Part shown: positions 23,022 to 26,845 of the stretch, piece after piece
Position numbering within the stretch: the first letter of the stretch is position 1
Layout of the letters: the number at the start of each line of letters is the position of its first letter
Assembly: GCF_001552785.1 (NCBI RefSeq)
Contig: NZ_KQ959507.1
Span: 62,001-126,000 of the forward strand
DNA: 64,000 nucleotides
Reading direction: 5' to 3'
Source: Atopobium deltae
GTDB taxonomy: Bacteria > Actinomycetota > Coriobacteriia > Coriobacteriales > Atopobiaceae
Translations under genes and position numbers: made by a program
Notes under the pieces: generated by a model
The model's database searches: none
What the model was told of the DNA's origin: nothing
The model's input: the letters and a program-made list of their open reading frames with translations, nothing else

Positions 23022-24617
23022 CTACAGCGCAGCGACACATAACGCAATAGCAGCTGCCAGAAGCATCATACCCAGCACCATACGTGCGCGTGCAAGCGCT
23101 TTCTCTGATGGTAGCGGCCACCGATACAATACTATAAGCATACACGCTGCACTGCCAAGAATAATAAGCGGGTGCGGCTGTTCCCAATAAATACAGGCAA
23201 AGGGCAGGTTTGCCAAAGCCTGTGCGCAACTCAGTACAAACCCACCCACTCCATCAATAACAAAGTATAAAAATCCTAGCTGCGGGATAACATAAACCAC
23301 CCCCATCACCGCAAAACTCAGAAGCATAAAGATAAAAAATATTGGTCCAATGCAGATATTTGCCAAAATTGCCACCAATGACAGCTGTTTAAAAAGTGCC
23401 AGCGTCAGCGGAAAGGTGCACCACAACGCCACAAGAGAACTTGTCATAGTATTCGTTGTGCTTACAAATGCACGCCGCAGGATACCCATGAGCTTTTTGG
23501 GTGCTGCTGGTATATACAGCGATGTTGTACCCACCAGTTCATGTAAGAGCCAGGACGCATAGGACGAGAAGATACACAGCCCCAACACTGACACCAACGA
23601 CAGTAAAAACCCGATGTCAGTCGCAAGCGTGGGCTGAATCAGGATGAGTACCACGGCACAGCTACAGCTTGCAGCAAGGGCACTTTTGCGTCTTCCCCAT
23701 ATACCTGATAGTTGCCCTACCACCGTCATGCACCATGAGCGCAACGCCGAAGCAGGGCACGCGCAAAACAAAACGAACAGCCCGCAGATACTCATAAGCA
23801 ATACACTGCGCGCAAAAGGTTTTAATGGCAGGCGTCCTATGGCAGCTGCACATAGCATATTGACCAACGCCAAATGCGATCCCGATACCGCCACGATATG
23901 CGCCAGTCCAACGCGAGCAAACATATCGGATATACCAAATCGATCCAGCGCTGTTTTGTAACCACATACACAGGCAGCAGCTAAAGCTCTTGTGGGACTT
24001 TTTTCGGGCTCAAGCGAGAAGAGCACACAATTACGAAAGTCTACAAGCCCCACAAATACATGCTGAGGTCGTATCATGTGTGTAATAGCTCGTACTTGCA
24101 CCTTCCCTACAATTCCTTTTGCAGACGCCTGCTGAGCCTGCGTGGCTGGTAAAGGTTTTGCCTGACCAATAAGCTGAAATGTATCACCATAACGGAGCGG
24201 TTGTGAGCTTACAAGCCATGCTTGCACTTGGTGCCGTACGTCTTTGCTACAACAGAGTGCCTTTGTTTTATAGCTACCATAGCTTTTGCTACTATCGCTG
24301 AGCGCTTCAAAACGTACTTGCGAAAGTGAGGTCTTTTTAAACCACTGTGACGCTTCAACAAATGCTTGTGATGTCTGCCACACTCGCACAAGACAAATAC
24401 CAAGCAAAAACATACAAATGCCTGCACGAACGACTGGCACTTTGTTGCGTCGTACCAAAATATACATACCCGCGCCGCTACAAGCGACAAGTGCACTCAC
24501 AGGCGCAAACCATCCAGGGTTATACAACAGCAACAAGCTTATCCCAAGGCACGCAAGCAACAGATACCAGATTTCGGATAGCTCTGGCTTGTAAGGCAAA
24601 ATTGCGCTGTTAGACAC
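23022..24617 (-). CDS. comEC: ComEC/Rec2 DNA-uptake channel protein without MBL domain
   Basis: Inner-membrane protein that carries single-stranded DNA in during transformation. The N-terminal hydrophobic and OB-like region (DUF4131) is followed by the multi-spanning Competence domain with the diagnostic HIVAVSGSHLALV. The sequence ends about residue 531, in the last membrane helices. Family members of 700-800 residues continue with a metallo-beta-lactamase domain, which is absent. GTG 24617 is chosen: it follows AAGG and overlaps the comEA stop by 8 bp. No frameshift was seen near the end, where holA follows after 28 bp. Confidence 0.9.
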   Translation of the reverse strand: MSNSAILPYKPELSEIWYLLLACLGISLLLLYNPGWFAPVSALVACSGAGMYILVRRNKVPVVRAGICMFLLGICLVRVWQTSQAFVEASQWFKKTSLSQVRFEALSDSSKSYGSYKTKALCCSKDVRHQVQAWLVSSQPLRYGDTFQLIGQAKPLPATQAQQASAKGIVGKVQVRAITHMIRPQHVFVGLVDFRNCVLFSLEPEKSPTRALAAACVCGYKTALDRFGISDMFARVGLAHIVAVSGSHLALVNMLCAAAIGRLPLKPFARSVLLMSICGLFVLFCACPASALRSWCMTVVGQLSGIWGRRKSALAASCSCAVVLILIQPTLATDIGFLLSLVSVLGLCIFSSYASWLLHELVGTTSLYIPAAPKKLMGILRRAFVSTTNTMTSSLVALWCTFPLTLALFKQLSLVAILANICIGPIFFIFMLLSFAVMGVVYVIPQLGFLYFVIDGVGGFVLSCAQALANLPFACIYWEQPHPLIILGSAACMLIVLYRWPLPSEKALARARMVLGMMLLAAAIALCVAAL

Positions 24618-25401
24618 GGATTTTACCTTGCAACTTTGCAAATTTCTTCTCGCCAATACCACTGATGCGCATCAGATCTTTGGGCGAGCTAAACTTACCA
24701 TGCTCTTTTCTATCCTGTATGATCCTGCGAGCTGTCGACTGTCCAATCCCTGGCAACGTCATGAGCTGTTCTTCTGTGGCGGTATTAATGTTCACAGGCT
24801 TTTGAGCTCGTCCCGTTTGTGATGCTCGACCTCGACTTGCTCGCTGCGCGCTACCCTGCGCCGTGGCTGGCAACTGTCCCAAAGGCGTTGGTACGGGCAC
24901 AGCTGCGGCATCAAAACGCGGCTCTTCTCCCTTTTTTGGAACGTAAATTTTGCTGCCATCCTCAACAAGCTCAGCAAGGTTGATGTTTGTCACATCTGCG
25001 CCCTCTAGCAGGCCACCTGCTTGATCTATGCCATCTTGTACGCGAGGCTTTTGAGAAGACAGGCTATAGACACCAGGTTTTTTGACGGCTCCGGCCACGT
25101 GCACCATTACTAATTCGGCTGCACGACTTGATTCTTGCTGTGCTTCGCTCGTGCCCGCCGCCTGTGTCTTTTTTCCTCCAGCGACCTTCTCGCCAGATCC
25201 ATCGTCAATAATTTGTGCCGATACCCCTGTCGAGAAGAGCGGCCAGCCCGCAACCATACTTGCAAGCGAGCTGCGAAAACGCCATGCAATACCACACGCA
25301 AGTCCCAGCAGCATCACAGCTGCTAACAGCCATAATTTTTGCTTCGTGAGCCCGTGACGTCTGATAAAACTTGTCAGCGGTCGAGACAAATATTGAGCCA
25401 T
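24610..25401 (-). CDS. comEA: ComEA family DNA-binding competence protein
   Basis: Membrane-anchored receptor that binds double-stranded DNA outside the cell and passes it to ComEC. One TM segment lies at about residues 23-40. An SLBB domain (HVAGAVKKPGVYSL) lies near 105-165, then an Arg/Gly-rich linker, then two helix-hairpin-helix motifs (VNINTATEEQLMTLPGIG and SPKDLMRISGIG) at the C-terminus. It has 263 residues. ATG 25401 has a strong GGAGG site that lies inside a 12-bp hairpin, so initiation may be restrained. Confidence 0.93.
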   Translation of the reverse strand: MAQYLSRPLTSFIRRHGLTKQKLWLLAAVMLLGLACGIAWRFRSSLASMVAGWPLFSTGVSAQIIDDGSGEKVAGGKKTQAAGTSEAQQESSRAAELVMVHVAGAVKKPGVYSLSSQKPRVQDGIDQAGGLLEGADVTNINLAELVEDGSKIYVPKKGEEPRFDAAAVPVPTPLGQLPATAQGSAQRASRGRASQTGRAQKPVNINTATEEQLMTLPGIGQSTARRIIQDRKEHGKFSSPKDLMRISGIGEKKFAKLQGKIRV

Positions 25402-25406
25402 ACAAA

Positions 25407-25437
25407 AAACCTCCTCAGTACAATTCTGAAGAGGTTT
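25407..25437 (-). promoter_or_regulatory. Hairpin joining the thiI terminator and the comEA ribosome site
   Basis: On the minus strand a 12-bp stem with one G-U pair and a 7-nt loop closes between thiI and comEA, then runs into six T and the comEA ATG. The GGAGG of comEA is in the 3' arm. It can act as the thiI terminator and also hide the comEA ribosome binding site. Confidence 0.75.
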
Positions 25438-25510
25438 CGCGTACAGCTTCTGTACTATCTCAAAAAGCGGCGCGCAAGCTGTCAAAAATCTAACACGAAG
25501 CTAACACAGC

Positions 25511-26845
25511 TTACGAGATTGGTACCGCGGCTGGCCCCAACGTAGCATGATAGGTTCTCAGCTCACGTGGAGGCTTATAGGAAGGACAGTCGCCCGTATC
25601 GATATATTCGATCTGCTGCATCAACTGCTCGAGGGCCGCCTCAAAATCAAACAATGCTTCAGCTGCATGAACTTCCCGCAAGCGGGCATGCGTTTCGGGG
25701 CGGCGAGGCATAAACAGCGTGCAGCAATCTGGTGCTGTCTGGCTCGAAATCTCAAAAGTACCGATCTGCTGGGCGCGGGCAATAATTTCCTGCTTATCGC
25801 TGCCAATCAGCGGCCTGAAGACGGGTATGTCGACCACTTCGTTGGTTGCGGTAATGTTTTCGAGCGTTTGCGATGCCACTTGCCCCAGTGACTCGCCCGT
25901 GACCAGCGCTTGCGCACCTTCCAGTCGCGCCACACGCTCGGCAATGCGAAACATCATACGTCGATACATAATAATGCGCAGGCTTTGCGGGACAGCAAGC
26001 GAAATTTCGCGCTGTACAGCCCCAAAGGGAACCACATACATCCGGCCGATACTGCCAGCGCTCTTGAGCTTCTCGACGATATCTTGGCACAAGTATTCGC
26101 TGGCATCAGAGGTCATTGGGCGGCCCGAAAAATGCACGGGTACCACGATGGCGCCGCGACGCCCCACCATCCAACTGGCAACAGGAGAATCGATACCGCT
26201 CGAAAGCAAGGACACAACTTTTCCAGCGGTGCCGACGGGAAGACCACCCACGCCCACCAGTGAGTGTGCGTAGACGTAGACATCGCCTTGCACCACGTTG
26301 ACATGCACCACGATATCGGGGTTATGCACATCGACTTTTTTATCGGGAAAATGCTCACAGAGTACCGAACCAACCAGACGGTTGAGCTCGAGTGTATGCA
26401 AATGATAATCGGTAGCACTGCGACGGGCTCGCACCTTAAAGGTCTCGAATCCGTCCGAGCTCGCAGCAGCCGAAACTGCAAAACTGCCCGAGGCAGCAAG
26501 CCCCGATAGTGTTGACGCTGCGCGCGCAGCCGCGGCCTGCGTCAATGCATCCACCGCAGCTTGGCAAAATTCTTCTTCTTGTTGGGCGGTTCTAAACGCA
26601 AGAGAGGCTCGCGCAACACCCGGTATCTGCGAAACCGTTTGTGCTATAGCCTCGAGGATCTTCTCGTCAGCTTGATCATCCGAAATGCGAATGCGCAAGT
26701 GACCAGAAATACGCTTAATATCTTGCACGGGATAGTCTTTTAGGGCGTGGCGCAAATTAACGATAAGCTGGTTTTCAAAACGCGCGCGGTTTTTGCCCTT
26801 GAGCCCTATCTCGTGGTAGTGCACTAAACAAACACGTGAAATCAT
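25511..26845 (-). CDS. thiI: tRNA 4-thiouridine synthase ThiI
   Basis: ATP-dependent sulfurtransferase that makes s4U8 in tRNA and may supply sulfur for thiazole synthesis. The 444-residue protein has an N-terminal ferredoxin-like/THUMP region and the PP-loop SSGIDSPVASW. The later TGESLGQVASQTLENI and the PDCCTLFMP cysteines are visible. It ends without a rhodanese domain, as in many Gram-positive ThiI. An Ala/Ser-rich insert of about 30 residues lies inside THUMP. It follows rpoZ by 21 bp. Confidence 0.93.
   Translation of the reverse strand: MISRVCLVHYHEIGLKGKNRARFENQLIVNLRHALKDYPVQDIKRISGHLRIRISDDQADEKILEAIAQTVSQIPGVARASLAFRTAQQEEEFCQAAVDALTQAAAARAASTLSGLAASGSFAVSAAASSDGFETFKVRARRSATDYHLHTLELNRLVGSVLCEHFPDKKVDVHNPDIVVHVNVVQGDVYVYAHSLVGVGGLPVGTAGKVVSLLSSGIDSPVASWMVGRRGAIVVPVHFSGRPMTSDASEYLCQDIVEKLKSAGSIGRMYVVPFGAVQREISLAVPQSLRIIMYRRMMFRIAERVARLEGAQALVTGESLGQVASQTLENITATNEVVDIPVFRPLIGSDKQEIIARAQQIGTFEISSQTAPDCCTLFMPRRPETHARLREVHAAEALFDFEAALEQLMQQIEYIDTGDCPSYKPPRELRTYHATLGPAAVPIS

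Follow-up and report, generated by a model that had tools for sequence, protein, structure and literature searches.

In the insertion sequences IS10 and IS50 the transposase gene is guarded against transcription from outside: read-through RNA folds over the transposase start, whereas the RNA made from the internal promoter does not. Phages are known to use a related arrangement: the genes e (lysozyme), soc, 49 and I-TevI of phage T4 and mobE of phage Aeh1 have a late promoter in or beside a hairpin which sequesters the ribosome binding site (RBS), and in the T4 late genes the transcripts from upstream promoters are closed while the late transcripts, which are without the 5' arm, are translated (PMC2988022, PMC3014915). 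Two further observations bear on the genes considered here. Leaderless genes of bacteria carry TANNNT some 12 bp upstream of their start codon (PMC3160421), and in Micrococcus luteus, an actinobacterium, the Flp/Tad pilus is needed for DNA uptake and transformation (PMC4322843).

In this study we followed up a hairpin in front of comEA in a stretch of DNA of 64,000 nucleotides, the whole of which we call the window. We consider it likely that this hairpin is an insulator against read-through with the gene's own promoter inside it. The computed support consists of the fold, the covariation, a -10-like element with a fixed spacing to an upstream array, and a promoter common to cpaB. From these we infer the exact start, the binding of an activator, the termination and the effect on translation. 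A sequence-only reading of the locus had proposed that comEA-comEC might be made only when the stem is melted, bound by a factor or bypassed by a start inside it; melting and binding now appear less likely, and the bypass is favoured because a -10-like element in the loop keeps a fixed phase with the shared upstream array. A start inside the hairpin had figured in that reading both as an option and as a refuting result.

The hairpin between thiI and comEA

The hairpin lies on the minus strand between the stop codon of thiI (25511) and the ATG of comEA (25401). The names thiI, comEA and comEC (PF03772 in Pfam) are all correct. The features of this region are as follows.

24610-25401, minus strand: comEA, 263 aa, starting MAQ, with HHH_3 and SLBB domains (Pfam)
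25511-26845, minus strand: thiI (PF02568), co-directional and upstream of comEA, the source of read-through
25426-25437, minus strand: 5' arm of the hairpin, AAACCTCTTCAG, by direct reading and folding; expected only in read-through RNA
25407-25418, minus strand: 3' arm of the hairpin, CTGAGGAGGTTT, by direct reading and folding
25410-25416, minus strand: Shine-Dalgarno (SD) sequence of comEA, GAGGAGG, within the 3' arm
25404-25409, minus strand: run of six Ts (T6) after the stem, which may be the tail of an intrinsic terminator of thiI

On the minus strand the region reads AAACCTCTTCAG-AATTGTA-CTGAGGAGGTTT-TTTGT-ATG or, with all that follows the loop up to the comEA ATG given in one piece, AAACCTCTTCAG-AATTGTA-CTGAGGAGGTTTTTTGT-ATG. 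Direct reading confirmed that the comEA SD lies inside the 3' arm of a 12-bp hairpin (25437-25407, minus strand), as had been claimed: positions 25437-25426 pair with 25418-25407 through 11 Watson-Crick pairs and one G-U pair, and one more G-U pair extends the stem to 13. The T run, which was said to end right before the ATG, does exist and comprises six Ts, but two bases (GT) separate it from the ATG at 25401.

The proposal that the hairpin hides the SD was borne out by computed folding. The segment 25480-25380 folds at -40.1 kcal/mol, compared with -23.1 on average for shuffled sequences (z = -5.3; 0 of 200 shuffles were as good), and in this fold the comEA start codon is also paired, by a lower helix. 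Opening the SD of comEA costs 19.2 kcal/mol, compared with 0.1-9.9 kcal/mol for 43 other genes of the window, and comEA is the outlier in the cost of SD exposure among the 44 window genes compared. In RNA begun upstream the SD is paired in the computed fold, as it is in a T4-type block, and both the folding and the SD opening costs support the earlier view that read-through RNA has a closed start site. A perfect palindrome, GTACAGAAGCTGTAC (25455-25441, minus strand), lies between the upstream array and the hairpin, and its second half pairs with the region of the comEA start codon in the computed fold.

Pairing and promoter element in relatives

When contigs were scanned with the comEA protein, all matches belonged to distant Firmicutes and one further lineage; the relatives were taken instead from a genome search, by which comEA upstream regions were gathered from the window's family and order, probably the Atopobiaceae and Coriobacteriales. 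The thiI-comEA gene order is kept in nearly all of these relatives and their ComEA proteins mostly start with MAQ. Most of their leaders have such a stem, with the SD regularly within the 3' arm. The sequence of the arms varies widely between relatives, the arm length ranges from about 6 to 17 bp and the loop from 3 to more than 13, while the pairing persists. One leader (L059) has a perfect ACCACCCCTGACAC/GTGTCAGGGGTGGT stem. In some genera (L118 and others) the gap between thiI and comEA is 300-500 nt, and the SD hairpin is weak or absent there.

When 25 leaders were aligned with MAFFT their 5' arms came out misplaced, and we therefore used a half-swap test rather than pair counts. In this test, which needs no structure-fitted alignment, each leader was cut in the loop and every 5' half was refolded with every 3' half. 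Own halves fold at -22.5 kcal/mol and swapped halves at -18.0 kcal/mol, a mean loss of 4.5 (z = -12; 0 of 20,000 permutations), and when each of the 22 genera is represented by a single sequence z is about -7.6. The search for compensatory changes in relatives, suggested by the sequence-only reading, has thus been carried out, and the pairing is conserved through compensatory change, as in a T4-type block. The pairing in the comEA leader is under selection. No match to an Rfam covariance model of a known riboswitch, thermometer or leader was found: none of 17 loci matched at E up to 1, and the window, searched at gathering scores, gave only a tRNA.

What, then, does the loop contain? In most relatives it holds CANNMT, 23-29 nt upstream of the start codon. 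In the window the following features belong to this element and to the DNA upstream of it.

25479-25506, minus strand: direct-repeat array TGTTAG-N5-TGTTAG-N5-TGACAG, 11-bp period, starting just past the thiI stop; presumed activator site
25458-25467, minus strand: CTTTTTGAGA, the counterpart of a conserved CTTTCT, 39 bp upstream of the -10-like hexamer
25423-25428, minus strand: CAGAAT, putative -10 hexamer at the top of the 5' arm and in the loop, from the anchor tests and a 50-nt gap to the array as at cpaB
25416, minus strand: predicted comEA transcription start, +1 = G, the first base of the SD, placed by the leaderless ruler

As CANNMT was picked by rule, the fact that it is conserved is no evidence in itself; what counts is the information found upstream of it. 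Under the picking rule 25 of 122 sequences have no hexamer. When sequences are anchored on CANNMT the upstream information amounts to 13.3 bits; the ATG as anchor gives 6.1 bits, and none of 300 distance shuffles exceeds 5.7. The upstream signal consists of GNNAG words with an 11-bp period together with CTTTCT at -39; a single phase out of the 11 accounts for 86 of the 190 GNNAG words, and the 11-bp phase is conserved across genera. Conversely, CTTTCT as the sole anchor recovers CANNMT 40 bp downstream. CANNMT is locked to the upstream DNA repeats and not to the gene start, and it is therefore read as a promoter element. Its position fits a -10 box and it looks like one, with a C at position 1 that departs from the consensus sigma-70 -10; no -35 was found for the comEA promoter element. 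The window scores low against the family profile (8.2 in a leave-one-out comparison; median 19.5). Our first reading of the conserved loop, as an RNA-binding motif, was dropped, as the anchor tests point to a promoter element. The array has the direct repeats with an 11-bp period that are typical of OmpR/PhoB-type activator sites, which we take these repeats to resemble, and the binding of such an activator is presumed from the repeat spacing.

The promoter at other genes and the predicted start

We asked whether the same promoter precedes other genes. A strict search, for three repeats followed by CTTTCT, 33 nt and YANNMT, finds additional sites in the 140 genomes scanned, and a reversed control pattern has 0 matches. 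These sites precede cpaB, which encodes an SAF/RcpC protein and heads a Tad-pilus cluster, and, in other genera, the genes of a family of proteins of about 320-370 aa, two members of which were scanned and gave no Pfam match. In this family the distance between the ATG and the hexamer's first base is exactly 12 nt at all eight loci (hexamer-N6-ATG); the eight loci represent one protein family and so are not eight independent tests. The family (L271, L273, L274, L275, L281 and L237-L239; MSIFLSHISALEVIRR..., MAIYLGHTSALEYWR...) shares the promoter and looks leaderless. A pattern for the window's own genus, TGTTNG-N5-TGACAG-N47..53-NANNMT, has 7 matches in 3 genomes (control 0), and six of them stand before comEA and cpaB, once for either gene in every genome, always with a gap of exactly 50 nt. 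A loose pattern, GACTTTCT-N30..36-CAYSMT, gives mostly scattered matches outside comEA and becomes specific once the repeats are added. No clear promoter was found near dprA and the T2SSE loci, and the pattern matches within the dprA loci were set aside as promoters, as they resemble conserved coding sequence.

In the window's genome the array and the hexamer CACAAT stand upstream of cpaB (L335; G000:C5:62525-62597, minus strand), and cpaB is preceded by a co-directional gene whose product has a C-terminus resembling, by eye, that of rsgA. This locus also has a CGTACC/GGTACG stem, which would be cut by the predicted cpaB start, the A that stands 12 nt past the first base of CACAAT. Opening the cpaB SD costs 7.6 kcal/mol in read-through RNA and 3.8 kcal/mol in RNA begun at the predicted start, and z is -6.1 in the swap test; the effect is weaker than at comEA.

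In the leaderless genes the ATG lies at the start of the hexamer plus 12, and therefore the start was set at this same distance, which places that of comEA at 25416. On the evidence of sequence, the promoter is so positioned that its own transcripts would lose the 5' arm, as in a T4-type block. Among 78 comEA leaders the median cost of opening the SD is 10.5 kcal/mol in read-through RNA and 1.2 kcal/mol from the predicted start, and for comEA of the window the values are 17.3 and 2.7 kcal/mol. Part of the lower cost from the gene's own start is expected for any shorter RNA: the SD opening cost of control genes is 3.8 at full length and 2.0 when truncated. Shuffling the upstream part lowers the comEA cost to 5.6, and therefore the specific 5' arm matters.

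We propose the following course of events. An activator would probably bind the 11-bp repeats just past thiI, and CAGAAT, which spans the loop and the top of the 5' arm, would serve RNA polymerase as a -10 box. Transcription would begin at 25416 or within a base or two of it, inside the stem. The comEA-comEC mRNA from this promoter would begin 5'-GAGGAGGUUUUUUGUAUG, with the SD exposed right at the terminus and the 5' arm missing, while read-through RNA from thiI, which has both arms, would fold and yield no ComEA. ComEA would be made only upon firing of the competence promoter. Perhaps the whole competence and Tad-pilus regulon translates only RNA from its own promoters, with comEA and cpaB starting inside a hairpin which closes the SD, the other members being leaderless and RNA from neighbouring genes giving little protein; we advance this wider proposal tentatively.

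Alternative explanations and known systems

Could the hairpin be a plain intrinsic terminator of thiI, its overlap with the SD being incidental? Its termination of thiI, part of the original proposal, is plausible, as the stable 12-bp stem is followed by the T6 run and the scan found no other thiI terminator in the window's genome, but a simple fixed-rule terminator scan of the window does not list the site, and "terminator-like" here denotes direct reading. Where a separate thiI terminator is lacking, the leaders contain more Ts ahead of the start than elsewhere (3.3 of 9 against 2.1 of 9; p = 0.0007, uncorrected for relatedness) and have stronger stems. This tie between hairpin strength and the lack of a terminator looked strong per genome (p = 0.001) but is no more than suggestive per genus (p = 0.056), and we draw no conclusion from it. 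In this species most of the thiI read-through is probably terminated at the T6 run as well. As the whole explanation, however, termination is very unlikely: in many relatives no T run follows the SD-pairing stem, some possess a separate terminator of thiI besides that stem, the 3' arm regularly includes the SD, and cpaB has the same design downstream of another gene. In two congeners (L336 and L337) the array lies in the loop of a separate terminator-like hairpin about 60-130 nt past thiI, CCTCTGTTTGA...TCAAACAGAGG followed by a T-rich stretch, and there the activator site and the terminator overlap.

It is unlikely, too, that comEA is a closed translational switch, its mRNA starting upstream with the hairpin complete and needing temperature, a protein or a small RNA to open it. 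The strong pairing of both SD and start codon and the conservation of pairing and loop would suit such a switch, but the loop element keeps a fixed distance to the upstream DNA repeats and not to the ATG, it also precedes cpaB and the leaderless genes, and the Rfam search at E up to 1 gives no family. We give very little credence to the inverted repeat as a DNA operator for a dimeric repressor sitting over the promoter. It does overlie the putative -10 and start, but an operator is expected to be constant in sequence and spacing, and here arm sequence, arm length and loop length vary while the pairing persists. An attenuator, in which an upstream AGTACAG acts as antiterminator by pairing with the TTGTACT of loop and 3' arm, is hardly credible: this 7-bp complementarity is visible in the window, adjoining the palindrome GTACAGAAGCTGTAC, but the pairing is absent from the minimum-energy fold. 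We thus retain the hairpin as an insulator with an internal promoter. If this is true, a chromosomal regulon uses a phage trick and translation checks which promoter made the RNA. The work also offers, for this bacterial group, a first candidate for a competence promoter with its regulon and links comEA-comEC with the Tad pilus, and the comEA transcript end is predicted to the base.

In the open-access literature we found no prior report of a promoter within an RBS hairpin in a bacterial competence regulon. The paper on M. luteus comEA (PMC8467076) does not contain "hairpin", "leaderless" or "transcription start", and no comparable leader structure was found in it. In M. luteus Tad genes serve DNA uptake, and here comEA and the Tad gene cpaB have a common type of promoter. 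The hexamer-N6-ATG members of the regulon fit the leaderless distance exactly and, unlike the genes of the earlier survey (PMC3160421), share an upstream array with hairpin-bearing genes. As in the T4 late genes, the comEA start is predicted within the RBS hairpin, freeing an RBS that is closed in the longer RNA. T4 and Aeh1 use this arrangement in genes for lysis and for homing endonucleases, the starts of several of which have been mapped, whereas here it concerns chromosomal competence and pilus genes with predicted starts; in contrast to T4, an array of activator type is present, and the T run at comEA of the window suggests termination. IS10 and IS50 are mobile elements in which the terminal repeat supplies the arm, and here the arrangement belongs to a conserved chromosomal regulon. 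The mechanism is known from the T4 late genes, and its use across a bacterial competence and pilus regulon appears to be new.
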